From positions 82,578-122,142 of the forward strand of contig NZ_SPQG01000003.1 in the NCBI RefSeq assembly GCF_004944975.1: a stretch of DNA of 39,565 nucleotides. Reading direction: 5' to 3'. The stretch comes from Halorhabdus amylolytica (lineage in GTDB: Archaea > Halobacteriota > Halobacteria > Halobacteriales > Haloarculaceae). The notes beneath the pieces are model-generated. The model did no database searches. It saw only the letters and a list, made by a program, of their open reading frames with translations, and was not told the DNA's origin. A program made the position numbers and the translations under genes. Each line of letters starts with the position of its first letter. The stretch's first letter is position 1. This document shows, one piece after another, positions 2,708 through 15,160 of this stretch.

Positions 2708-5376
2708 GGTTCGAGCGCGTCCGACTCGAGAATTTCAAGTGCTACGCCAACGCCGATCTGCGACTGGACCGTGGCGTAACGGTCATCCACGGCGTCAACG
2801 GCAGCGGGAAGTCCTCGCTGCTCGAAGCTTGTTTCTTCGCGCTGTACGGCGCTCGCGCACTCGATCGCACTCTGGACGAACTCGTTACGATCGGGACCGA
2901 GGAGGCCACCGTGGAACTCTGGTTCGCCCATGGAGGGAAATCCTACCACGTCAAGCGTCGTGTCCGCGTTCGGGACGACCGGGCCAGCACCGCGGAATGC
3001 GTTCTGGATGAGCCCGATGGCGTGGTCGAGGGTGCACGTGACGTTCGGGAACGCGTCGCGTCGCTGTTACGGATGGACCACGAGGCGTTCGTCAACTGCG
3101 CGTACGTCCGCCAGGGGGAAGTCAACAAGCTCATCAACGCAACGCCGAGCGAACGCCAGGACATGATCGACGATCTCCTCCAACTCGGTCGACTGGAGGA
3201 GTACCGAAAGCGCGCCAGCGACGCCCGCGTCGGGGTCGGGCGCGTCCTTGAAGGTAAACGTGAGTCGCTCACACAGCTCGACGAGCAGATCAACGCCAAG
3301 GAGGAGAAGGATCTCCACGAGCAGCTCAACGTGGCCGAGAGCGAACTCGCGACGGTCCGGGAGAAACTGGATCACTACGACGACCAGCGCGAGACTGCCC
3401 GTGAGACCCTCGAGGACGCCAAATCGATCCTCGAGGAGTACGAGCAGCGCCGCAAGGAACTCGAAGACATCGAGAGCGAGATCGAAGAACTAACCGGGAC
3501 GATCGAGGCGACCGAGCGCGAGCGCGAGGAGCTCGCCGACGAAATCGCCGAGCGTCGCGAGCGTCGCGCGGAGATCGGCGAGCGGATCGAGACCGCACTC
3601 GAAGCGACGGAACTGCCGACGGACGCCGACCGCGACGCCGTCGAAACGCTGATCGAGGATCTCGACGCACGGGACGACGAAATTCGCGACGAGATCGAAC
3701 AGCACCGCCTGGACGCCAAGGGATACCGAGAGGACAGCGAAAGTCACCGCGAAGACGCCACCGATGCCGAGGAACGCGCCGCGAAGAAGCGAAAGCGGGC
3801 CGACGATCTCGAATCGGATCTCGAAGAGACACGTTCGGCTCTCACGGAACGCCGGGAGACGCTGCTCGAACTGGACGAGGACATCGACTCGATCGAGGAG
3901 ACGTTCGCCGACGCGCCGATCGGCCTCGACGAAGCGGAGTCGTATTACGACGAGGTAGTGGCACAACTGGAAGACGTCACCGAGGAGTTGACGACACTCG
4001 ACGCCCGGATCGAGTCCGTCGAGAGCGACATCGAGGAAGCAGAGGAACTGCTCGAAGCCGGCAAGTGTCCCGAGTGCGGCCAGCCTGTCGAGGGGGCACC
4101 GCGCGTCGAATCGCTTGAGGGAGACAGGAAGCGATTAGCTGATCTCGAGGAAGAGCGCGAGAACGTGCGGGAAAACCGCGCGGACGCCGAGGAACGGCTC
4201 GAACGCGCCGAAACGCTGGTCGAGAGAGCGGACGAACACGACCGGCTGCTGGAGAAACGTGAGACTCTCGCCGAGTTGATCGAGGAACGGGAGAATTCGA
4301 TCACGGAGACCGAAGAACGGATCGAGACTCTGCGGGAAGAGGCGGACGAACTCGAGACGGACGCCGAAACGCACCGCGAGTCTGCCGACGAAGCCGCCGA
4401 GAAGGCCGAGAAATGTCGGAAAGCCATCGCCGAGTGCAACGAGCGCCGTAGCGACCTCGCCGATCGCATCGAGGCCCTCGAGGACGTGATCGCTGACTTC
4501 GGTCGGCGTGACGATCTCGAGAACGCCATCGAGAACCGCCGGGAACGCCGCGCCCAGCTCGAAGAGATGAACGACGAACGTCGCGACCGTCTCGGGACGC
4601 TCCGGGAGCGACGCTCGGAACTCTCGGCGGCGATCGACGAGAATCGACTGGCGAAGGCTCGCGAGGACAAGGATCGCGCCGAGTCGTATCTTGAGGAGGT
4701 GACCGAGGAGATCGAGGACCGCCAGGAGCGACGCGACGAACTCCAGGCCCGGATCGGAGCTCTCGAGAACGAGATCGAGGAACTCGCATCCCTTCGGGAG
4801 CGTCGTGGGGCTCTCGCCGAGACAGTCGAAGACCTCGAGTCTCTCTACGACGAGGCCGAACAACTTCAGGAGATGTACGGACAGTTGCGGGCGGAACTCC
4901 GGAAGCGAAACGTCGAGACCTTAGAGCGGATGCTCAACGAGACATTCGAACTCGTCTACCGTAACGACTCCTACGACCGGATCGAACTCGACGAGGCCTA
5001 TCACCTGACAATCTACCAGAAGGACGGTGAACCCCTCGACCCCGATCAGCTTTCCGGCGGCGAGCGTGCCCTGTTCAACTTGAGCCTGCGAGCAGCGATC
5101 TACCGGCTGCTCGCCGAAGGGATCGAGGGGACTGCGCCGACGCCGCCGCTGATCCTCGACGAACCGACGGTCTTCCTGGATTCCGGCCACGTCTCACAGT
5201 TGCTCGAACTCATCGAATACATGCGCGGGGAGATCGGGGTCGAACAGATCGTGGTCGTCAGTCACGACGACGAATTGGTGGACGCGGCCGACGATCTGGT
5301 CTACGTCGCCAAGGACTCGACGACCAACCGTTCACGTGTCGAGCGTCGGGAGTCCGCCGGGTTGCTGGCCGAGTGA
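2704..5376 (+). CDS. rad50: DNA double-strand break repair ATPase Rad50
   Basis: This SMC-like ATPase partners Mre11 and tethers and opens DNA ends. The 890 residues contain Walker A NGSGKS (32-37), a Q-loop Gln at 137, two long Glu/Arg-rich coiled-coil arms, and a zinc hook CPEC (Cys455 and Cys458) at the apex. The ABC signature LSGGE (783-787), Walker B LILDEP (816-821), a D-loop and an H-loop in VVVSHDDE follow. All parts needed for ATP-driven dimerisation and hook pairing are present, and the length is normal for archaeal Rad50. It overlaps mre11 by 4 bases and converges with the next gene, 11 bp away. Confidence 0.96.
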
Positions 5377-5387
5377 ACCTCCTCTGG

Positions 5388-5810
5388 TCAGGCTTCCAGC
5401 GTCTCGAGTGCGTCGCTCGCAGTTTCCGTCGTCCCGTATCCACGCTCGCCGGTGACGCGCCGTTCCTCGATGAGTCCAGCCGCACGGAACTCCGCCAGTT
5501 GCCCGTGGAGGTCGCTCTCGCAGTACTCGAACCGGTCGAGCATCGCTCTGACCGACAGCGGTCCGTCGCGTTCGAGTTCGAGAAGCAGTCCCAGCGAGCG
5601 CTCGGTCCGGACGGCGGTCAGCACTCTTCGAAGCGGTTGTGAAACCGCTTTGGCTGCCACCGAGAGGGGTGACTCCTCGTCCAGCATTTCGAGGTCCGCT
5701 GGCGGCCGATACGTCTCCTGGTCGGTCTCGGGATCGCGGATCAACCACTCACTGTCCGAGCGCTTCAGTAGAAGATAGGTCTTCCCGTCTCCATCCTGTA
5801 CTGTCCGCAT
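5388..5810 (-). CDS. Conserved haloarchaeal winged-helix protein
   Basis: The 140-residue protein has two parts. Residues 1-50 look like a small beta-rich domain (RTVQDGDGKTYLLLKRS, then DPETDQETYRPPADLEML). Residues about 60-135 look like a winged helix (ERDGPLSVRAMLDRF, then LHGQLAEFRAAGLIEERRV). I recall a protein of this kind beside rad50 in other haloarchaea, annotated only as a domain of unknown function. Given the location between rad50 and polB, a role in genome maintenance or its regulation is possible, but nothing in the sequence proves it. A purine-rich GGGAG lies just before ATG 5810. It is the last of three co-directional minus-strand genes. Confidence 0.8.
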   Translation of the reverse strand: MRTVQDGDGKTYLLLKRSDSEWLIRDPETDQETYRPPADLEMLDEESPLSVAAKAVSQPLRRVLTAVRTERSLGLLLELERDGPLSVRAMLDRFEYCESDLHGQLAEFRAAGLIEERRVTGERGYGTTETASDALETLEA

Positions 5811-5881
5811 GATCTCCCTATCGACCGCGGACGGTTAGGACTACCGTCGAGGCAGGACGACACGGTGCTGACAGAACGCCG

Positions 5882-6208
5882 TTAGATGGGTCCCTCGCTG
5901 TCGTCCGCCCGAGTACGGACAAATCGTCGGTAGCGAACGAATCCGTAGCCGCCGGCCACTCCCCCGACGGCCAGGAGACCCATGCCGATCCGGAAATCGC
6001 CGAGGAAATACAGAACCATCGGGCCGACGGTGACGCCGAACAGTGCCACGTTGAACACGAGGACGAGTCGCCAGAACAACTTGACGACGTCCGAGTCGAA
6101 GTCACCCTCGGCCGGCTTCGGCTCGGGAACGTCAACCGTCGGTATCAGGTCGTCGTCACTGGCGGCTCCCTCCTCGAAGAAGTCGTCGAACGGGTCACTG
6201 CCGGACAC
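5882..6208 (-). CDS. Small conserved membrane protein
   Basis: The protein has 108 residues and a GTG start. The acidic N-terminal half (about residues 1-45, rich in Asp, Glu and Pro) should be cytoplasmic. Two hydrophobic segments follow (about 45-68, LFWRLVLVFNVALFGVTVG; and about 72-92, IGMGLLAVGGVAGGYGF), then a basic RYRRFVRTR stretch. This is a haloarchaeal family of unknown function. It lies 43 bp after the preceding minus-strand gene with no clear TATA box between them, so the two are probably co-transcribed. The start could differ by a few codons. Confidence 0.75.
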   Translation of the reverse strand: MSGSDPFDDFFEEGAASDDDLIPTVDVPEPKPAEGDFDSDVVKLFWRLVLVFNVALFGVTVGPMVLYFLGDFRIGMGLLAVGGVAGGYGFVRYRRFVRTRADDSEGPI

Positions 6209-6251
6209 GTCTCTCAGTCAGAGTGCCGTCGTGAAATCGGCTTCGCTTGAC

Positions 6252-6443
6252 TCACCGCCGCTCGGGAAGGTCTGTTGCGTCGTCGCTGTAGATCCACGCC
6301 ATCGGGTTCTCGGCGTCATAGAGTACTGTCCCATCCTCGGTCTCGTAGAACTCGACCGTTTCGACCGTCTCGGACGGTTCGGGGAGCATCGGCTCCCGGG
6401 ACGCCGCTCCGTCACTCCGACTGCCGTTGGCGGGGTTCGACAT
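6252..6443 (-). CDS. Small acidic conserved haloarchaeal protein
   Basis: The protein has 63 residues if it starts at ATG 6443. The C-terminal half, with VETVEFYETEDGTVLYDAEN followed by PMAWIYSDD, is the conserved part as I recall it from other haloarchaea. The N-terminus is low complexity. I chose ATG 6443 because a TATA-like TTTATG on the minus strand (about 6480-6475) sits at the right distance. ATG 6467 would add eight residues but lies too close to that box, and longer frames would run through the promoter. The function is unknown. It is divergent from polB and shares a 96-bp intergenic region with it. Confidence 0.7.
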   Translation of the reverse strand: MSNPANGSRSDGAASREPMLPEPSETVETVEFYETEDGTVLYDAENPMAWIYSDDATDLPERR

Positions 6444-6472
6444 GACAATCGGATTCTGGTATGCCATGACGT

Positions 6473-6516
6473 AACATAAACTTTCTCCATGCGGCGGCGA
6501 CCGGGGAGTTTTAGGG
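6473..6516. promoter_or_regulatory. Divergent promoter region: small acidic gene (-) and polB (+)
   Basis: On the minus strand GTTTATGTT (6481-6473) serves the gene starting at 6443. On the plus strand GTTTTAGGG (6508-6516) is centred about 28 bases before the polB ATG at 6540. The plus-strand box rules out an upstream polB start at 6489. Confidence 0.5.
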
Positions 6517-6539
6517 TGACGGGCCGAACCAACGCTCCA

Positions 6540-9257
6540 ATGGCAGATTCCGGGAAACAACGTGGTCTCGGCGAGTTCGCCGAGGGGGCCGGCAGGCCCG
6601 CGGAGGAGGCCCAGGTCGTCGCCGGCAACGGTGGGCAGGGGGCGAACGTCGTCGAGACGGGCGAGTGGAAGTATCCCGAGAAAGAGGGCACCGTTTCACT
6701 GTCGGTCACGCAGGTCGACTACACGATCGAGGGCAGCGGCGACGACGAGTATCCCGTCTTGCACGTCTTCGGCCGCACGTCGGATCGCGAACTGGAACAC
6801 GTCCGCGTCTACGAGTTCAAGCCGTACTTCTATGCGCCGGTCGACTCCGTCGAGGAAGAACGACTCGCGGACTACGGCGCGATCACTGGCTGGCAGTATA
6901 CCGACGACGATGGTGATTCCTACGAGTCGATCCGTGGCGAGGAACTCGTAAAGATCTTCGGCCGGACACCGCGTGACGTCGGGCAGATCCGCGACGACTT
7001 CGAGCACTACGAGGCGGACATTCTCTTCCCGAACCGCCTGCTCATCGACAAGGACATCACCAGCGGTGTTCGTCTCCCCGAACGGCGCACCGACGACGGC
7101 TCGATCCGGATCCCCCACGACGAGATCGAGGCCATCGATTACGACGCCGAGGCACGCATCAATACTTTCGACATCGAAGTGGACGACCGCTCGGGCTTCC
7201 CCGAGGACGGCGAGGAGCCGATCATCTGTCTCACGAGCCACGACTCCTATCGCGACGAGTACGTCGTCTGGCTGTACGACTCCCCTGTCGGGATAGACCC
7301 GCCCGAGGCCCTCGAACAGTACGAACCCCTCGAAGACGACTTCGAGGCCGACGTGCGCGTCTTCGAGACGGAGGAGGCGATGCTCGCGGCGTTTCTGGAC
7401 TATATCGAAGAAACTGATCCTGATTTGACAACTGGATGGAACTTCTCGGACTTCGACGCCCCGTATCTCATCGACCGATTGCAAGAACTCGACCCGAAAA
7501 CAGACCGGAATCTCGACATGAATCGCCTCTCTCGGGTCAACGAAGTCTGGGAGAGCGACTGGCAGGGTCCGGACATCAAGGGTCGGGTCGTCTTCGACCT
7601 CCTGCGGGCCTACAAGCGCACGCAGTTCACCGAATTGGAGTCCTACCGACTCGAAGACGTCGGCCAGGCCGAACTCGACGCCGGCAAGGAGACTTACACC
7701 GGCGACATCGGCACCCTGTGGGAAGAAGATCCAGAGCGCTTGCTCGAATACAATCTCCGGGACGTCGAACTCTGCGTCGAACTCGATCGCAAGCAGGACA
7801 TCATCGCCTTCTTCGAGGAGGTGGCCTCTTTCGTGGGGTGTAAACTCGAAGACGCGCCCACGCCCGGGGACGCCGTCGACATGTACGTCCTCCACAAGGC
7901 CTTCGAGAACTTCGTTCTTCCCTCGAAGGGCACCGTCGAGTCCGGCGAGGAGTTCGAGGGCGGGGCCGTCTTCGAACCGATCAGCGGCATCAAGGAGATG
8001 GTAAGTGTCCAGGACTTGAAATCCCTATATCCGATGTGCATGGTAACAATTAACGCATCCCCGGAGACGAAGGTCGATCCCGAGACCTACGACGGGGAGA
8101 CGTTCCGTGCACCGGATCCCAGCGGCCAGCACTTCCGGAAGGAACCGGACGGCATCGTCCGGGAAATGGTCGAGGAATTATTATCAGAACGCGAAGAAAA
8201 GAAGGCACTTCGAAACGATCACGAGCCCGGAACCGAGGCTTACGAGCTCTATGACCGGCAGCAAGGAGCTGTCAAAGTTATTATGAATAGTTTATATGGC
8301 GTTTCGGGGTGGGATCGGTTCCGCCTCTACGACAAGGACAATGCGGCGGCCGTAACCGCAACAGGGCGGTCGGTCATCGAGTACACCGAGTCGGCCGTCA
8401 ACGATCTCGGCTACGACGTGACATATGGAGATACTGACAGTGTTATGATAAGTATGGGGACGGACATGTCCGTGGAGGACGCCATCGATCGTTCCTTCGA
8501 GATCGAGGAGGCCATAAACGCCTCCTACGACGAGTTTGCTCGCGAGACGCTGCACGCCGAGGAACACCGCTTCCAGATCGAATTCGAGAAACTCTACCGG
8601 CGGTTCTTCCAGGCGGGCAAGAAAAAGCGCTACGCGGGCCACATCGTCTGGAAGGAGGGCAAAGACGTCGACGACATCGACATCACAGGCTTCGAGTACC
8701 AGCGCTCGGACATCGCCCCCATCACCAAGCGCGTCCAGAAGGAAGTCCTAGACATGATCGTCACAGAGGGTGACATCGACGCCGTCACGGAGTATCTCCA
8801 CGACGTGATCGAGGACTTCCAGGCCGGCAACGTCAATCCGGAGGACGTGGGTATTCCAGGCGGGATCGGCAAGCGCCTGGACAACTACGACACCGACACC
8901 GCCCAGGTCCGGGGGGCGAAGTACGCCAACCTCCTGCTGGGGACGAATTTCGACCGCGGGAGCAAACCCAAGCGACTCTACCTCAAGAAGGTCCACCCCG
9001 ATTACTTCGAGCGTATCGAGGACGAACGGGGTCTCGATCCCTCGCGTGATCTCCTCTATGGCGAGTTCAAGCGGGACCCGGACGTGATCTGCTTCGAGGT
9101 CGCCGAACAGATCCCCGAGGAATTCGAGGTCGACTGGGAGAAGATGTTAGAGAAGACGCTCAGAGGGCCGATCGCCCGCGTTATCGAGGCACTCGACGTC
9201 TCCTGGGAGGAGGTCAAGAGCGGTCAGGAACAGACTGGTCTCGGTCAGTATATGTGA
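6540..9257 (+). CDS. polB: Family B DNA polymerase, intein-free
   Basis: This is the replicative-type DNA polymerase with 3'-5' proofreading. At 905 residues it has the normal length for an intein-less haloarchaeal PolB. Exo I is FDIEVD (about 210), Exo II GWNFSDFDAPYL (about 300) and Exo III YNLRDVELC. Polymerase motif A is D492-L-K-S-L-Y-P (usual SLYPS is SLYPM here), motif B K579xxxNSLYG (N583, Y586, G587), and motif C YGDTDS (D631, D633). The C-terminus ends in TGLGQYM, reminiscent of a PIP-like PCNA-binding tail. The start at ATG 6540 is set by the TATA-like box at 6508-6516. Codons in and around motifs A, B and C are markedly AT-rich compared with the rest (see findings). Confidence 0.95.
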   Translation: MADSGKQRGLGEFAEGAGRPAEEAQVVAGNGGQGANVVETGEWKYPEKEGTVSLSVTQVDYTIEGSGDDEYPVLHVFGRTSDRELEHVRVYEFKPYFYAPVDSVEEERLADYGAITGWQYTDDDGDSYESIRGEELVKIFGRTPRDVGQIRDDFEHYEADILFPNRLLIDKDITSGVRLPERRTDDGSIRIPHDEIEAIDYDAEARINTFDIEVDDRSGFPEDGEEPIICLTSHDSYRDEYVVWLYDSPVGIDPPEALEQYEPLEDDFEADVRVFETEEAMLAAFLDYIEETDPDLTTGWNFSDFDAPYLIDRLQELDPKTDRNLDMNRLSRVNEVWESDWQGPDIKGRVVFDLLRAYKRTQFTELESYRLEDVGQAELDAGKETYTGDIGTLWEEDPERLLEYNLRDVELCVELDRKQDIIAFFEEVASFVGCKLEDAPTPGDAVDMYVLHKAFENFVLPSKGTVESGEEFEGGAVFEPISGIKEMVSVQDLKSLYPMCMVTINASPETKVDPETYDGETFRAPDPSGQHFRKEPDGIVREMVEELLSEREEKKALRNDHEPGTEAYELYDRQQGAVKVIMNSLYGVSGWDRFRLYDKDNAAAVTATGRSVIEYTESAVNDLGYDVTYGDTDSVMISMGTDMSVEDAIDRSFEIEEAINASYDEFARETLHAEEHRFQIEFEKLYRRFFQAGKKKRYAGHIVWKEGKDVDDIDITGFEYQRSDIAPITKRVQKEVLDMIVTEGDIDAVTEYLHDVIEDFQAGNVNPEDVGIPGGIGKRLDNYDTDTAQVRGAKYANLLLGTNFDRGSKPKRLYLKKVHPDYFERIEDERGLDPSRDLLYGEFKRDPDVICFEVAEQIPEEFEVDWEKMLEKTLRGPIARVIEALDVSWEEVKSGQEQTGLGQYM

Positions 9258-9434
9258 CAAGCGAGTCGGGTCCGGGTACGGCGAGTCCGGTCGCGGGCTG
9301 TTCTCGCGCATGTGCGGCGAGACCACCAGTGCCTTCGTCTTTCGTTAACTTTCTTTTCGATAGATCCAAAGCAAATATCTTGTGTTGCGAAAGCTTCATG
9401 GGTGGGAGGAACCTGTTTTCGGTTGACCTAGAAC
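9258..9434. promoter_or_regulatory. polB-sufC spacer with the suf promoter
   Basis: This 177-bp spacer is GC-rich in its first half and AT-rich in its second. GCAAATATCT (9371-9380) is the best TATA candidate and would give a leader of about 30 nt before ATG 9435. GGGAGGA (9404-9410) is too far from the ATG for a normal Shine-Dalgarno. No other gene is seen here. Confidence 0.35.
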
Positions 9435-10349
9435 ATGGCAACACTCGAAATCAACAATCTCCACGCAGAAGTCGCCGAAGAGAGTGGCGAGCGGATTCTC
9501 GAAGGGGTCGACCTGACGGTCGAGTCCGGCGAGATCCACGCGCTGATGGGACCGAATGGCAGTGGGAAATCGACGACGGCGAAGATCATCGCCGGTCACC
9601 CCGCCTACGAGGTGACCGAGGGAGAAGTCCTCCTCGAACTCGAAGATGACGAGTACGACGAGGAGATTCCAGAGGACAAACGGACCTGGAATCTGCTCGA
9701 GCTCGAACCGAACGAGCGCGCGGCGCTGGGCGTCTTCCTCGGATTCCAGTATCCGGCCGAGATCGAGGGCGTGACGATGGTGAACTTCCTCCGGACAGCG
9801 TTGAACGCCAAACTCGAGGAGCGCGAGGAGCTCTTCGAGGACGACGAGGAAGCAGACGCTGACGAAGATAGCGAGGAAGAGGCGGGCTACGACACCTCGC
9901 CGATGGAGGGCCCCGCCGACGAAGGTGAGGTCAGCGTCGCCGAGTTCCAGCAACTCCTCAAGGAGAAGATGGAGCAACTAGACATGGACGAATCGTTCGC
10001 CGAGCGATACCTCAACGCTGGGTTCTCCGGCGGCGAGAAGAAACAGAACGAGGTTCTGCAGGCAGCCATTCTCGAACCCGAGATCGCAGTGCTCGACGAG
10101 ATCGACTCCGGGCTGGACATCGACCGTCTCCAGGACGTCTCGAAGGGGATCAACTCCCTCCGTGACGACCAGGGGACTGGCGTCCTGCAGATCACCCACT
10201 ACCAGCGTATCCTCGACTACGTCGAACCCGATCACGTCCACGTGATGCTCGACGGGCAGATCGCCAAGAGCGGCGGGCCGGAACTCGCCGAGAAACTCGA
10301 GGACGAGGGGTACGACTGGGTCCGCGAGCAGGTCTACGAGGCGGCCTGA
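9435..10349 (+). CDS. sufC: Fe-S cluster assembly ATPase SufC
   Basis: This is the ABC-type ATPase of the SUF Fe-S cluster scaffold SufBCD. Walker A GPNGSGKS is at 39-46, the ABC signature SGGE at 198-201 and Walker B VLDEID around D221-E222, followed by the SufC-typical DSGLDIDRL. At 304 residues it is longer than bacterial SufC (about 250). The extra length is a halophilic acidic insert around residues 130-165, rich in Glu and Asp. It is the first gene of a tight sufC-sufB-sufD operon, 12 bp before sufB. Confidence 0.96.
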
Positions 10350-10361
10350 GGTGACCAACGT

Positions 10362-11789
10362 ATGAGTTCAGACAACGACCTCGAATCGACCGATACAGAG
10401 GCTCGATTCGAATTCAAGAAAGAGCAGTCGTCGGCCTACGAAGCCGAGGTGGGCCTCACAGAGGAGACCGTCCGGAAGATCTCAGAGGACAAGGACGAGC
10501 CAGAGTGGATGCTCGAACGGCGTCTCCGCGCCTTAGAGCAGTACAAGGAGATGCCGATGCCGACCGACTGGCCCGGCCAGCCGGACCTTTCGGAGGTCGA
10601 CATCGACGAGATCATTCCCTACATTCGCCCGGACATCGAGACACGGGGCGGCGCCGAGGACTGGGACGACCTCCCGGACGAGATCCAGGACACTTTCGAC
10701 AAACTGGGCATCCCCGAGGCCGAACAGCAGGCCCTCTCGGGCGTCGGTGCCCAGTACGAATCGGAGATCGTCTACCAGAACATGCAGGAGCAGTGGGAGG
10801 AGAAGGGCGTCGTGTTCATGGACATGGACAGGGCCGTCCAGGAACACCCCGACCTCGTGCGGGAGTACTTCATGACGAAGGCCGTCCCGCCCAGCGACAA
10901 CAAGTTCGCGGCGCTGCACGGCGCGGTCTGGTCGGGCGGTAGTTTCGTCTACATCCCCGAGGGCGTCACCGTCCAGATGCCCATCCAGGCGTACTTCCGG
11001 ATGAATTCGGAAGGCATGGGCCAGTTCGAGCACACCCTCATCATCGCCGAGGAGAACTCCGAGGTCCACTACATCGAGGGCTGTTCGGCACCGCAGTACG
11101 CCCGCCACAACCTCCACAGTGGGGGCGTCGAGGTCTTTGTCAAGGAAGGTGCCCACGTTCAGTACTCGACCGTGCAGAACTGGTCGAAGAACACCTACAA
11201 CCTCAACACTAAACGGGCTATCGCCGAGGCCGACGGTCGCATGGAGTGGATCTCCGGGTCGATGGGCTCGAAAGCGACCATGCTGTACCCGAGTACCATC
11301 CTCAAAGGCCCCGGCGCAAGCGACAACCACATCACCATCGCCTTCGCGGGCGAGGGCCAGGACATCGACACCGGCGCAAAGGTCTACCACAACGCGCCGA
11401 ACACGAAGTCCACCATCGAATCCAAATCCATCGCCAAGGACGGCGGGCGGACGAACTACCGCGGTCTGGTTCACATCGCCAACGGCGCGAAGAACTCCTC
11501 GACCAGCGTCGAGTGTGACGCGCTGATGTTCGACAACGAGTCCACGTCGGACACGATGCCGTACATGGAGATCCAGGACAACCAGGTCGACGTCGCCCAC
11601 GAGGCGACCGTCGGCAAGATCGGCGACGAGGACGTCTTCTACCTCCAGTCCCGCGGGCTGGACGACGACGACGCAAAGCAGATGATCGTCGCCGGGTTCA
11701 TCGAGCCGATCACGGAGGAACTGCCAATCGAGTACGCCGTCGAACTCAACCGTCTCATCGAACTGGAGATGGAGGGGAGCCTCGGATGA
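10362..11789 (+). CDS. sufB: Fe-S cluster assembly scaffold SufB
   Basis: SufB is the scaffold subunit on which the nascent Fe-S cluster is built. The 475 residues match the SufB family along the whole length, including FVYIPEGVTVQMPIQAYFR, YIEGCSAPQYARHNLHSG and the C-terminal beta-helix core. The conserved cluster-assembly cysteine is visible as C385 in SVECDAL, and the Fe-S handover signature TSDTMPYMEIQ follows. The stop overlaps the sufD start (ATGA), so the two scaffold subunits are likely made in equal amounts. SufE and SufS homologues are not in this window. Confidence 0.96.
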   Translation: MSSDNDLESTDTEARFEFKKEQSSAYEAEVGLTEETVRKISEDKDEPEWMLERRLRALEQYKEMPMPTDWPGQPDLSEVDIDEIIPYIRPDIETRGGAEDWDDLPDEIQDTFDKLGIPEAEQQALSGVGAQYESEIVYQNMQEQWEEKGVVFMDMDRAVQEHPDLVREYFMTKAVPPSDNKFAALHGAVWSGGSFVYIPEGVTVQMPIQAYFRMNSEGMGQFEHTLIIAEENSEVHYIEGCSAPQYARHNLHSGGVEVFVKEGAHVQYSTVQNWSKNTYNLNTKRAIAEADGRMEWISGSMGSKATMLYPSTILKGPGASDNHITIAFAGEGQDIDTGAKVYHNAPNTKSTIESKSIAKDGGRTNYRGLVHIANGAKNSSTSVECDALMFDNESTSDTMPYMEIQDNQVDVAHEATVGKIGDEDVFYLQSRGLDDDDAKQMIVAGFIEPITEELPIEYAVELNRLIELEMEGSLG

Positions 11790-13042
11790 GCACGCAGGTA
11801 CACGCCACACTCACCGCGGACGATGTCGAGCAGGTCTCGGCGGAACTGGGCGAGCCCGACTGGCTGACCGAGACGCGTCTGGAGGCATTCGAGGCCCTGG
11901 ACGATCTCGACATGCCGTCGGTCATCCGGACGCCCGGCCGCGACTGGACGAACCTCGACGCACTCGATTACGAGGAACTCGTCGACCCACTGGAGTGGGC
12001 CGAGGAGAAGGACCGTGTCGAGGCCGAAGGCGTCGACGTGCTCTCGTGGGCAGCGGCCCTCGAAGAGCACGGCGAACTCATCCAGGAACACTTCGGGAGC
12101 GTCGTCGACCCCCAGCGGGACTACCTGACGGCCCTCTCGACAGCGCTGTTCGGTGCGGGGACGGTCGTCTACGTGCCCGAGGGCGTCTCAGCCGAGGACG
12201 TGAAGATCCGGACGACGATGAACTCCCGGTCGCTGTTCAACTACACGCTCGTCGTCGCCGAGGAATCGTCGTCGGTGACGATCCTGGAGCGTCAAAGCAC
12301 GGGAGAGAGCGTTGCGCCAGCGGCGCAACGAGGCGAAGGCGGCGAAGCCGCCGGAGCGGACAGCGATCAGTACTACTCGGGCGTCGTCGAGGTCGTCGCC
12401 GACAAGAACGCGAACGTCCAGTACGGCGCGTTGCAGAACCTCGCCGAGGACACGTACAACTTCTCGGTCAAACGCGGCCACGCCGCCCGGGACGCCACCG
12501 TCAACTGGATCGAGGGCAATCTCGGCTCCCAGTTGACCAAGACGAGCGTCGAAACCCGACTCATCGGTGACGGCGCCGAGAGTCAGATCGTCGGGGCCTT
12601 CTTCGGCCACGAGGACCAGCACTTCGATCTCGGATCGCGAGTCTGGCACGAGGGCGAGCACACCACGGCCGATCTGGTGACTCGCGGCGTGCTGGACGAC
12701 GAGGCCCGCTCGGCGTACGAGGGCGTCCAGGACGTCGGGCAGGATGCGTGGGACACCAATTCCTACCAGCGGGAGAATACGCTCCTGCTCAGTGACGACG
12801 CCGAAGCCGACGCTAGCCCGAAGCTGATCATCAACAATCACGACACCGAAGCATCCCACTCCGCGACGGTTGGACAGGTCGACCAGGAAGACCTGTTCTA
12901 CATGACTTCCCGCGGCGTCGACGAGGAGCGGGCGACGAACATGCTCGTCGAAGGGTTCTTCGTACCCGTCTTAGAGGAGGTTGCCGTCGACGAGTTGCGC
13001 GAGGACCTGGACGAACTGATCCTCGACCGTCTCGGGGCCTGA
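11786..13042 (+). CDS. sufD: Fe-S cluster assembly protein SufD
   Basis: SufD is the SufB paralogue that completes the SufBC2D complex and is needed for iron entry. It has 418 residues. The family core is visible (VVYVPEGV; NVQYGALQNLAEDTYNFSVK; the catalytic-region His358 in TEASHSATVGQVDQ). Residues about 170-193 carry an extra Gly/Ala/Glu segment between ILERQSTG and DQYYSGVVEVV. At DNA level this segment consists of two perfect short-loop inverted repeats (12311-12329 and 12338-12352). I expect most homologues to have a shorter acidic loop there. Start ATG 11786 overlaps sufB by 4 bases. Confidence 0.94.
   Translation: MSTQVHATLTADDVEQVSAELGEPDWLTETRLEAFEALDDLDMPSVIRTPGRDWTNLDALDYEELVDPLEWAEEKDRVEAEGVDVLSWAAALEEHGELIQEHFGSVVDPQRDYLTALSTALFGAGTVVYVPEGVSAEDVKIRTTMNSRSLFNYTLVVAEESSSVTILERQSTGESVAPAAQRGEGGEAAGADSDQYYSGVVEVVADKNANVQYGALQNLAEDTYNFSVKRGHAARDATVNWIEGNLGSQLTKTSVETRLIGDGAESQIVGAFFGHEDQHFDLGSRVWHEGEHTTADLVTRGVLDDEARSAYEGVQDVGQDAWDTNSYQRENTLLLSDDAEADASPKLIINNHDTEASHSATVGQVDQEDLFYMTSRGVDEERATNMLVEGFFVPVLEEVAVDELREDLDELILDRLGA
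12311..12352. repeat. Paired short-loop hairpins inside sufD
   Basis: The first hairpin is GTTGCGCC-AGC-GGCGCAAC (12311-12329; 8-bp arms, 3-nt loop). The second is GGCGGC-GAA-GCCGCC (12338-12352; 6-bp arms, 3-nt loop). Both are in frame and encode a poorly conserved loop. Confidence 0.8.
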
Positions 13043-13076
13043 TCTCTCCCTTTCCGTCGATACGACCCCTCACCGG

Positions 13077-13247
13077 TCACAGTTCGACGACGACTGGTTC
13101 ACAGTCAGTACAGGCGAGAACTGGCTGTTCCGGCGGTTCGTAGATCAAATTTCGCCCCCCACAGCGGTGTCCGATCGTGGTCTCCTCGACGGGTCCGCCA
13201 CACGTGGATGTCCGAAGAACGGTCCACAGGGGTATCAGGAGTGTCAC
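13077..13247 (-). CDS. Possible small zinc-ribbon protein or remnant
   Basis: Read on the minus strand, this frame ends in a convincing metal-binding pattern: TCGGPVEETTIGHRCGG, then a stretch with EPPEQP, then CTDCEPVVVEL and a stop. CGG...CGG...CxxC spacing is typical of the small zinc-binding proteins common in haloarchaea. The only plausible start near the domain is GTG 13247, giving 56 residues, and no promoter or Shine-Dalgarno is evident. The first residues overlap the antisense lipoprotein remnant at 13208, so the true 5' end may have been lost. It is either a real micro-protein or a truncated gene. Confidence 0.4.
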   Translation of the reverse strand: MTLLIPLWTVLRTSTCGGPVEETTIGHRCGGRNLIYEPPEQPVLACTDCEPVVVEL

Positions 13248-13402
13248 GTCGTCGATTCCCTGATACCGCGGGCGCGACGGGTATCGCACTGAGACTTGCT
13301 GGTTGTGGTGGCCGGGACAGTCCAACGATCCGGTTGACGGTCGATCAGGAGTCCGTGGACGCCGAAGAGGCAGTCGTGGACGCGCTGTACGACGTCGGTC
13401 TC
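13208..13402 (+). pseudogene. N-terminal remnant of a Tat-lipoprotein (sugar ABC substrate-binding type)
   Basis: The frame opens with a twin-arginine lipoprotein signal: SRRRF (residues 13-17), a degraded hydrophobic core, then a LAGCGG lipobox. The mature part with TIRLTVDQESVDAEEAVVDA resembles the N-terminus of haloarchaeal sugar ABC substrate-binding proteins as I remember them. The signal core carries damaging changes (P and D after the RRRF, R before LAG). After YDVGL the frame enters an inverted-repeat element at 13403 and ends soon after, so only about 65 of the expected 400 or more residues exist. This is inferred to be a dead gene fragment, related to the MalK-like fragment just downstream and to the adjacent trmB. 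Confidence 0.6.
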
Positions 13403-13484
13403 ATACGGATTATTGTCGTGATGTACCGGTATCTGTCGACCCCCGGGTCGGCGTCATTCGGAAATAATCTACAATAATCCGTAT
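13403..13484. mobile_element. MITE-like element A with 14-bp perfect terminal inverted repeats
   Basis: The left end is ATACGGATTATTGT (13403-13416) and the right end is its exact reverse complement ACAATAATCCGTAT (13471-13484). The 82-bp element contains a central GC hairpin CGACCC-CC-GGGTCG (13437-13450) and no coding capacity of its own. The ends differ from those of element B only by transitions (ATACGGA T/C T A/G T/C TGT), so the two are relatives. No convincing target-site duplication was found; the flanks match by only one base. Confidence 0.6.
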
Positions 13485-13485
13485 C

Positions 13486-13575
13486 AATGGGGACATCGAG
13501 GCCGTCTTCGATCAACGGACCATCCGCTTATTCGACTCGAACTCCGGAAGAGCGATCACCCACGAACTCGTCTGA
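13486..13575 (+). pseudogene. C-terminal remnant, probably of a MalK-type ABC ATPase
   Basis: Directly after element A, an open stretch of 29 codons reads NGDIEAVFDQRTIRLFD, then SNSGRAITHELV and a stop at 13573-13575. The pattern V-FD---I-LFD---G-A is what the TOBE-domain end of MalK/UgpC sugar-transport ATPases usually looks like. There is no start codon and nothing upstream except the repeat element. I infer the tail of an ABC sugar-transporter operon. With a fragment this short, the identity is plausible, not proven. Confidence 0.4.
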
Positions 13576-13656
13576 TACGGACTGCTGTAAGTCATTTCGA
13601 TATCGACCGCCCGAGTGCGGGCGGTCGTACCGGTAAACAGTTACAGCAGTCCGTAT
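13575..13656. mobile_element. MITE-like element B with 16-bp perfect terminal inverted repeats and a central hairpin
   Basis: The left end is ATACGGACTGCTGTAA (13575-13590) and the right end is its exact complement TTACAGCAGTCCGTAT (13641-13656). Inside, arms CGACCGCCCG (13604-13613) and CGGGCGGTCG (13618-13627) form a 10-bp stem with an AGTG loop. Total length is 82 bp, the same as element A. GTACCGGT occurs inside both. The element could be a miniature transposable element. The strong stem could also act as a terminator for the remnant upstream. Confidence 0.65.
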
Positions 13657-13738
13657 GAATCCATCGCCTTCGAACCGGTGTCTGCTTCGGAACATCCCAT
13701 GATCGACGCACGGAACGCCATCCAGTCGAAGTCAATAT

Positions 13739-13746
13739 CTTTTACA
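13739..13746 (+). promoter_or_regulatory. TATA-like box upstream of trmB
   Basis: CTTTTACA sits about 27 bases before ATG 13770 (a short ORF), but more than 110 bases before the trmB start at GTG 13856. The transcript therefore probably begins at or next to the short ORF. Confidence 0.5.
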
Positions 13747-13769
13747 CCGCGCAGAGTTTCGAAAGCAGC

Positions 13770-13859
13770 ATGAACACGGATCACGAATGCGAGGGTCGAG
13801 GCCGGGAACGCACGTTGCCGTCCGTTTCGCGTCGCCGACTCCGGAGGTATCGTCCGTGA
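13770..13859 (+). CDS. Arg-rich 29-codon leader ORF of trmB
   Basis: This short frame starts at ATG 13770, where the TATA box predicts the 5' end of the mRNA. It encodes 29 residues, 9 of them Arg, with the densest basic stretch SRRRLRRYRP at the C-terminus. It stops at TGA 13857-13859, which overlaps the trmB GTG (13856-13858) as GTGA. The trmB Shine-Dalgarno GGAGGT lies within it, so ribosomes leaving this ORF could re-initiate at trmB. It may be a true leader peptide or just the translated leader. An alternative reading is that trmB itself starts upstream in its own frame. Confidence 0.4.
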   Translation: MNTDHECEGRGRERTLPSVSRRRLRRYRP

Positions 13860-14923
13860 ACGAGTCCAAACTAACCACGGTTCTCGAGAAGGCCGGATTC
13901 TCGCCGTACCAGGCCGACGCCTACGTGGCCTTGCTCGAACTGGGGTCGGCGACGGCGACGGACATCGCGGAGCGCAGCGGCGTTCCCGACCCACGGATCT
14001 ACGACGTGTTGCGCGATCTCGAAGCGGAAGGGTACGTCGAGACGTACGAACAGGAGTCTCTGCGGGCTCGGATTCACGATTTCGAGTCGTTGCGGGAGAG
14101 CCTCGAGGAGCGGGCGGTGCAGTTCTCGGACGCCGGCGAGGAGATCGAGCGACGCTGGGAGGAACCCGTGATGGAGGAGAGCGTCGTCAACTTCGTCACG
14201 CGCTTCGAGACGATCCTCGAGAGTGCGGCCGATGCGATCGAGAACGCCGAGAATCAGGTCCAACTGGCGGTGAGTCCCGAGCAGTACGAACAACTCCGGC
14301 CGGCACTCGCGGCCGCCGCGGAGGACGGGGTGAGCGTCCATCTCTCGGTGTTCACGGAGAACGGAGCTGAGTCGCTGCCGGACGCCGAAGACGTAGCAGC
14401 AGTCTGTACGGAGGCGCGTCACAGACGTCTCTCATCGCCGTTCGTGACTGTCGTGGATCGGACGAAAACCTACTTCGCGCCACACGAGGGGTCGACCAAC
14501 GAGTACGGACTCATCGTCGACGACCGGACCCACGCCTACGTGTTCTACTGGTTCTTCCTGACGACGCAGTGGGACAACTGGGAACCGTTCTACGTGGCCG
14601 ATGACGACCATCCCGACGAATACCTCGAGATCAGATACTGCGTTCGTGATATCGCACCCTTGCTCGACGCCGGCCGGAGGGTTCGTCTCCGCGTCGAGGG
14701 TGTCGATACCGAGACGGGCGCCCGTCGCGAAGTCGAGGGAACAGTCCGGGATGTCGTCGTTGGGTCCGACCACGCTAACCTCGCGGAGACGTCTGTCAGC
14801 GCCTACGGCGATCGCGTCGCACTCGTCATCGAGACGGACGCCGGAACGGTCGAGGTCGGCGGGTGGGGTGCGCTCGTCGAGGACGTCGAGGCCCACCAGA
14901 TCCACGTCGTGTCGATCGAATGA
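13856..14923 (+). CDS. trmB: TrmB-type sugar-responsive transcriptional regulator
   Basis: This 355-residue protein has an N-terminal winged helix (about 5-70; LTTVLEKAGFSPYQADAYVA, then ATDIAERSGVPDPRIYDVL), a coiled-coil linker (about 70-105) and a large C-terminal TrmB ligand-binding domain. The C-terminal part includes a phospholipase D-like fold region and a beta-sandwich rich in Trp and Tyr (YVFYWFFLTTQWDNWEPFYV). The length matches Halobacterium TrmB, a glucose-responsive regulator of central metabolism. GTG 13856 is preceded by GGAGGT at 13843-13848. An in-frame ATG at 13787 would add 23 residues. Remnants of a sugar ABC operon lie directly upstream, so it may have lost its local target. 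Confidence 0.88.
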   Translation: MNESKLTTVLEKAGFSPYQADAYVALLELGSATATDIAERSGVPDPRIYDVLRDLEAEGYVETYEQESLRARIHDFESLRESLEERAVQFSDAGEEIERRWEEPVMEESVVNFVTRFETILESAADAIENAENQVQLAVSPEQYEQLRPALAAAAEDGVSVHLSVFTENGAESLPDAEDVAAVCTEARHRRLSSPFVTVVDRTKTYFAPHEGSTNEYGLIVDDRTHAYVFYWFFLTTQWDNWEPFYVADDDHPDEYLEIRYCVRDIAPLLDAGRRVRLRVEGVDTETGARREVEGTVRDVVVGSDHANLAETSVSAYGDRVALVIETDAGTVEVGGWGALVEDVEAHQIHVVSIE

Positions 14924-14936
14924 TTAATAGCGGATA

Positions 14937-14951
14937 CCCGTTTCGAACGGG
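14937..14951 (+). terminator. Possible hairpin after trmB
   Basis: CCCGTT-TCG-AACGGG lies 13 bases past the trmB stop. There is no T-run after it, so terminator function is uncertain. Confidence 0.3.
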
Positions 14952-15088
14952 CTGGGCGTCGACGTCAGGCTCCGATCGACGTCAGTAGCGGTGTCGATCA
15001 CATTCAGTGAGTTCGGAAGCCTGGTCGGATCGCATATGTCGGATGCCTGGCGGTCCTGAATCCGTGTCGGTCGCGTTCCGGGAACGGG

Positions 15089-15094
15089 TTTAAG
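15089..15094 (+). promoter_or_regulatory. TATA-like box before the ferritin-like/DtxR-type operon
   Basis: TTTAAG is centred 27 bases before ATG 15119, the start of a 13-codon ORF, and not before the main start at GTG 15157. Confidence 0.55.
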
Positions 15095-15118
15095 GGGACG
15101 CCAAACCGACAGATCGGT

Positions 15119-15160
15119 ATGTACGGTTCCGCGACGCGTCGCCGGGGGGGACGAAAGTGA
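15119..15160 (+). CDS. 13-codon Arg-rich leader ORF
   Basis: The ORF encodes MYGSATRRRGGRK. Its ATG sits exactly where a leaderless transcript from the TTTAAG box would begin. Its TGA (15158-15160) overlaps the GTG start of the ferritin-like gene as GTGA. A G-rich stretch (15143-15150) could act as a Shine-Dalgarno for the downstream gene. It may work as a coupled leader peptide. No homologue is known to me. Confidence 0.4.
   Translation: MYGSATRRRGGRK

Follow-up and report, generated by a model that had tools for sequence, protein, structure and literature searches.

The window that we analysed (the whole stretch of 39,565 nucleotides from Halorhabdus amylolytica) contains, between sufD and the next conserved gene (positions 13043 to 15156), the C-terminal 51 codons of one gene, codons ~11-67 of a second, the last ~27 codons of a third, two short hairpin elements and the whole of a trmB-type gene. 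An initial annotation of this DNA had claimed the order Tat/lipobox start (SRRRF...LAGCGG), inverted-repeat element, MalK-like tail, second element and trmB, and this order was found when both strands were read. The feature starts at 13077 and not at 13208, because it includes a gene remnant on the minus strand (13080-13232).

This minus-strand remnant, which spans 13077-13232 with its stop codon, belongs to an uncharacterised, CxxCGG-bearing gene (hereafter the neighbour gene), whose other ~213 codons are gone. It aligns to the last 52 residues of the homologs in relatives G008 and G027 (58% identity) and to the corresponding region in G022 (60%), over 52 aligned columns (L063:3610-4407, minus strand; L067:8484-9281, plus strand; L062:3384-4313, minus strand). 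The solute-binding protein remnant (13235-13402, plus strand) carries the Tat motif SRRRF and the lipobox LAGC, and has no start codon of its own. The ATG at 13208, previously taken as the original gene start, falls inside the neighbour remnant, and homology to binding proteins is present only from 13235. Here the identity is 63% with G027 (residues 11-67), 59% with G008 (residues 11-68) and 44% with G022, over 57-61 residues, and a whole-genome search with the intact G008 protein recovered the same piece (E 3.4e-14). The third remnant (13489-13575, plus strand) is the TOBE end of a MalK/UgpC-type ATPase, including its stop codon, and shows 63, 58 and 54% identity with residues 349-374/375 of 375 in G027, G022 and G008, respectively.

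Compared with the loci of the relatives, the neighbour (51 aa), binding-protein (56 aa) and MalK (28 aa) fragments scored 60.8, 67.8 and 37.4 bits, respectively, as compared to 29.6, 29.6 and 24.6 bits for the best of 100 shuffles. A Pfam search with the two translated fragments of the transporter genes gave no match because the pieces are too short, whereas direct comparison with relatives succeeded. These short fragments contain neither frameshifts nor stop codons, and for this reason their age and decay are not demonstrable from the fragments.

The regulator gene (13856-14923, plus strand) is intact and encodes 355 residues. Its start is most likely the GTG at 13856, within a longer frame that is open from 13787. 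The protein has both the HTH and the effector domain of the TrmB family above cut-off (PF01978, 68 bits; PF11495, 183 bits), and is 74, 70 and 64% identical to the regulators of G003, G022 and G008, respectively. With the halobacterial TrmB equivalog model NF047392 it reached 167 bits as compared to a curated cut-off of 500 bits, which was exceeded in none of the seven genomes of the genus.

Element 1, an 80-bp hairpin resembling a miniature inverted-repeat transposable element (MITE), occupies 13404-13483 on the plus strand (model match 82.1 bits, E 5.8e-16) between matched TCA duplications at 13401-13403 and 13484-13486. Element 2, of the same length but of another subfamily, occupies 13576-13655 on the minus strand (84.9 bits, E 1.4e-16), and its matched TGA duplications lie at 13573-13575, where the left one is the MalK stop codon, and at 13656-13658. 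Both fold far better than their shuffled sequences (z of -3.9 and -9.6; 0 of 200 shuffles in each case), and the element end motif occurs four times in the window as compared to 0.08 expected. The two are 92 bp apart, the closest pair among the at least 52 places listed in the genome; about 0.13 such pairs would be expected for 52 copies on a simple uniform estimate, so this closeness is suggestive only.

Intact counterparts and the two deletions

Relatives of TrmB were sought in 59 genomes, 56 of which gave a match, and seven stretches of up to 20 kb were fetched from six genomes. With 33 further trmB-type loci, 40 loci were compared, and all four transporter genes were present in 28 of them by manual count of the listing; the other 12 (L065, L066, L092, L098, L102-L108 and L110) include some that are cut by contig ends or hold part of an operon. 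In G008 (L063) the intact order is neighbour gene (3610-4407, minus strand), binding protein (5144-6595, plus strand), two permeases (6613-7590 and 7587-8576), MalK (8583-9710) and TrmB (9932-10978), with the families SBP_bac_1, BPD_transp_1 (twice) and ABC_tran with OB_MalK and TOBE_2. G022 (L062) has the same arrangement, and in both the order and orientation are identical to those of the window. MalK and TrmB lie close together on one strand in three loci (L061, L062 and L063), while in Halorubrum they are mostly tail to tail. Around the intact module of G022 we also observed three 78-bp relatives of the hairpin element (L062 3329-3406, 4681-4758 and 11191-11268), which lie over the end of the neighbour gene, between this gene and the binding protein, and after trmB.

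As the initial annotation had predicted, the matches of the two fragments fall in the first and the last gene of a single operon adjoining trmB (in G008 and G022, and in G027, locus L067, with trmB some kilobases off), and order and orientation agree. Two outcomes had been named as counting against this reading: matches to unrelated proteins did not occur, and the same short arrangement was seen in no relative, 28 of the 40 loci having the full operon and a short remnant being possible in the other 12. A functional CUT1 operon has a binding protein, two permeases and a MalK-type ATPase clustered, and here two gene ends remain. The region 13077-13658 is therefore very probably a pseudogene scar of a haloarchaeal sugar ABC-transporter module, bordering trmB. 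In the parts of the description available to us, the malEFG...malK/trmB CUT1 operon of Thermococcales (PMC4158304) has a gene set like that of the intact relatives, namely binding protein, two permeases, MalK-type ATPase and adjoining TrmB. The window differs from it in keeping only the ends of the first and last genes, and in having a regulator that falls under the cut-off of every TrmB equivalog model.

A single deletion of several kilobases had been proposed. The middle of the operon is indeed gone, but the relatives point to two deletions, which together amount to ~5.7 kb. Since neighbour homology ends at 13232 and binding-protein homology starts at 13235, a first deletion of ~1.4 kb (G008 coordinates 3769-5173) would have joined the two, removing the N-terminal part of the neighbour gene together with the intergenic region and codons 1-10 of the binding protein. 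This junction has no element; a possible footprint of a third one (GTA before TCA) was dropped, as three matching bases are no evidence. The second deletion, of ~4.3 kb (G008 5348 to 9627), runs from about codon 67 of the binding protein to ~27 codons before the end of malK. Repeats had been placed at the junction, and this holds for element 1, while element 2 overlaps the MalK stop codon instead.

Where element 1 begins in the window, after GGTCTCA, the binding-protein genes of G008 and G027 have GGACTCAGCGAG and GGCCTCAGTGAG, respectively, both with CTCAG at the site. The left edge therefore corresponds to a typical target site in the intact gene. Homology to MalK resumes ~3-5 bases beyond the right duplication. 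When the genome of the window was searched with the intact G008 binding protein, the 67-residue scar piece, full-length paralogs (44% identity on contig C22 and 35% on C7) and short or weak matches were found. G008 MalK likewise found paralogs (65% on C7, 60% on C22, lower elsewhere). The missing middle is therefore not elsewhere in this assembly, which is 99.4% complete in 26 contigs. Related sugar operons remain in the genome.

Among the congeners, the gene found at 15157 in the window trails sufD by ~0.1 kb in three (G001, G002 and G003), and the interval is longer and has other cargo in G006 (~0.95 kb), G005 (4.3 kb) and G004 (16 kb). Chitinase-type genes (GH18/CBM5-12) are in the inserts of both G005 and G004, and the latter also carries a GH32 gene, one complete transporter operon, a TrmB (51% identity) and a homolog of the neighbour gene (39%). 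G004 also has the most similar SufD among the congeners. Its operon has another gene order and a binding protein only 35% identical to that of G008, and is therefore not the intact version of the scar. The interval after sufD (window 13043-15156; L223, L224, L225 and L226) is a recurrent landing place for carbohydrate genes. The SufD of the window has 418 residues as compared to 403-404 in congeners, and there seems to be a small in-frame insert with short inverted repeats near 12310-12360.

The closest regulator, that of G003 (74%; L061), adjoins a transporter operon of another type, whose binding protein is 34% identical to the fragment. The regulator and the operon therefore need not share one history, and they seem to have been re-paired.

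The 80-bp element family

The elements have the ends TNA-TACGGANTNNTGTA, and their end motif was found 38 times in the genome of the window as compared to none for the reversed control. We collected 76 complete copies (27 from this genome and 49 from relatives), 60 of which are exactly 80 bp long. Identical 3-bp flanks, nearly all TNA, were present in 66 of the 76, as compared to 34 on average and 50 at most after re-dealing of the right flanks. C precedes the left duplication in 57 copies and G follows the right one in 50 (A in 11), so that the preferred site is CTNAG. A model derived from the copies gave at least 102 strand matches at at least 52 places in the genome (manual count), a lower bound because 150 of 2715 candidates were scored. 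With up to 40 candidates scored per genome, the model matched in 71 of 116 genomes of the family, belonging to 20 of 22 genera.

In the fold, an outer stem of 15 bp leads through an asymmetric inner loop to an inner stem. Among 24 distinct copies, base pairing was present in 90.0% of the cells as compared to 79.1% after shuffling; 14 of 27 pairs had changed on both sides (shuffled mean 10.6, reached by 8 of 500 shuffles), and the covariation score was 0.340 as compared to 0.162 (0 of 500 shuffles) and to no more than 0.194 when the structure was slid. Further pair types were not strikingly numerous (their number was reached by 46 of 500 shuffles). These values are to be read with the consideration that related copies can exceed shuffles even without selection, and that inverted ends matched by a transposase would covary too. 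The opposed positions 16/65, 18/63 and 22/59 almost never pair (0-2%, below shuffles), and thus the inner loop is constantly asymmetric.

The elements are short (80 bp), non-coding, bounded by terminal inverted repeats (15-bp arms), present at many places (at least 52) and flanked by a 3-bp TNA target-site duplication. As far as the accessible text of the Haloquadratum study goes (PMC3119063), its SMRs, PATEs and MITEs are likewise haloarchaeal, 80-110 bp long, multi-copy and gene-free with inverted ends; SMRs have terminal inverted repeats and no target duplication, and PATEs have neither. Membership in SMRs was rejected, since the present elements make target duplications, and so was membership in PATEs, since they have terminal inverted repeats as well; MITE is the fitting class because both properties are combined. 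Within the sources we could consult, a literature search for such an element yielded nothing beyond the Haloquadratum paper (PMC3119063) and a review of prokaryotic MITEs. Rfam gave one match at chance level (mir-3198, E 0.35, far under the gathering score) and none in the loci of three relatives.

Around PF01609 transposase genes, no element-type pair of ends was present at 25 loci from five genomes. ISHma10, an IS5-like sequence adjoining a repeat copy in Haloarcula marismortui, was ruled out as a partner, its ends being different. Across 171 loci, four pairs of matching ends 0.3-4 kb apart had equal duplications, and these appear to be the ends of separate short elements. Viral contigs scanned twice with the end motif gave 12 stretches and no complete element by the two-arm test. 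A second variant, with ends TACGGTCGG..., occurs in G022 (L147, L150, L168 and L176), once directly beside an ordinary copy (L168 1489-1649). Plasmids carry copies too, in Haloarcula hispanica pHH400 (L209 1501-1582), H. marismortui pNG400 (L210 1501-1586) and Halomicrobium mukohataei pHmuk01 (L212 1501-1585), each at the 3' end of an annotated gene with its stop codon in or at the element.

Possible course of events and its meaning

Taking these data together, the space from sufD to the next conserved gene would once have held a module for sugar uptake, made up of the neighbour gene, the binding protein, two permeases, the MalK-type ATPase and trmB. One deletion would have taken away the greater part of the neighbour gene along with the intergenic region and the ten codons that open the binding-protein gene. 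Element 1 would have entered the binding-protein gene while this was still intact, and would then have served as the starting point of the 4.3-kb deletion, through recombination with another copy in malK or through aberrant transposition. Insertion-element-associated deletions can leave gene remnants, and the scar is like them in that gene ends flank a mobile repeat on both sides, but unlike them in that the repeat is a non-coding 80-bp hairpin and not a full insertion sequence.

How element 1 made or marked the second deletion is inferred. Homologous recombination between two 80-bp copies that lay in the same orientation in the binding-protein gene and in malK, respectively, is plausible while falling somewhat short of probable. 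It fits homology that extends up to element 1 on the left and to within ~5 bases of the right duplication, in a genome with at least 52 element places where another same-strand pair lies 4.5 kb apart (C22:32434 and 36973). However, the element would have had to insert twice into the same operon, and a TNA site at the right edge is lacking from malK in both G008 and G027. Recombination would also have had only a short tract of 80 bp to work on, and element 1 shows no visible mosaic. Aberrant transposition or slippage from a single element in the binding-protein gene, with the deletion next to its right end, may be a little less probable. Deletions adjacent to insertion sequences are well known, and the left edge is a perfect CTNAG-type target in the intact relatives; against it, no cognate transposase was found at the 25 PF01609 loci from five genomes, and a matching TCA is still on the right flank. 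The matched TCA is uninformative on mechanism, because it is expected for a plain insertion and would arise by chance in roughly half of recombinants.

An earlier deletion of other origin, with a later chance insertion of the element at its junction, is unlikely. The elements do insert in non-coding DNA, a second one being 92 bp off, and the joined site would read CTCAA, with the A that follows the right duplication in 11 of 76 copies; yet the insertion would have had to fall within ~8 bp of the junction in an estimated 600 bp or so of remnant DNA, and the G found there in 50 of 76 copies exists only in the undeleted gene. Collapse of two element copies during assembly, with the intervening 4.3 kb dropped, is very improbable: an 80-bp repeat can mislead short-read assembly and the genome is in 26 contigs, but the bodies of the binding protein and MalK are nowhere else in an assembly 99.4% complete, and the upstream deletion junction has no element.

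The intact trmB may act in trans on other sugar genes, or may simply not yet have decayed. Literature searches on TrmB with gene loss and on Halorhabdus islands returned nothing on the scar locus. A broader reading, which we consider rather doubtful, takes the 80-bp hairpin as a mobile element spread through the haloarchaeal family, with near-fixed length and a fold kept by compensating changes, and as a deletion hot spot eroding carbohydrate-use cassettes at the recurrent landing interval after sufD, of whose turnover the scar would be a snapshot.

The scar shows, gene end by gene end, a sugar-uptake module dismantled in a haloarchaeon with its regulator surviving, and this took place in an interval where sugar and chitin genes come and go among the members of a single genus. 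The 80-bp element is common in the haloarchaeal family and makes a testable subject of how such short hairpins move and whether they bring about gene loss.
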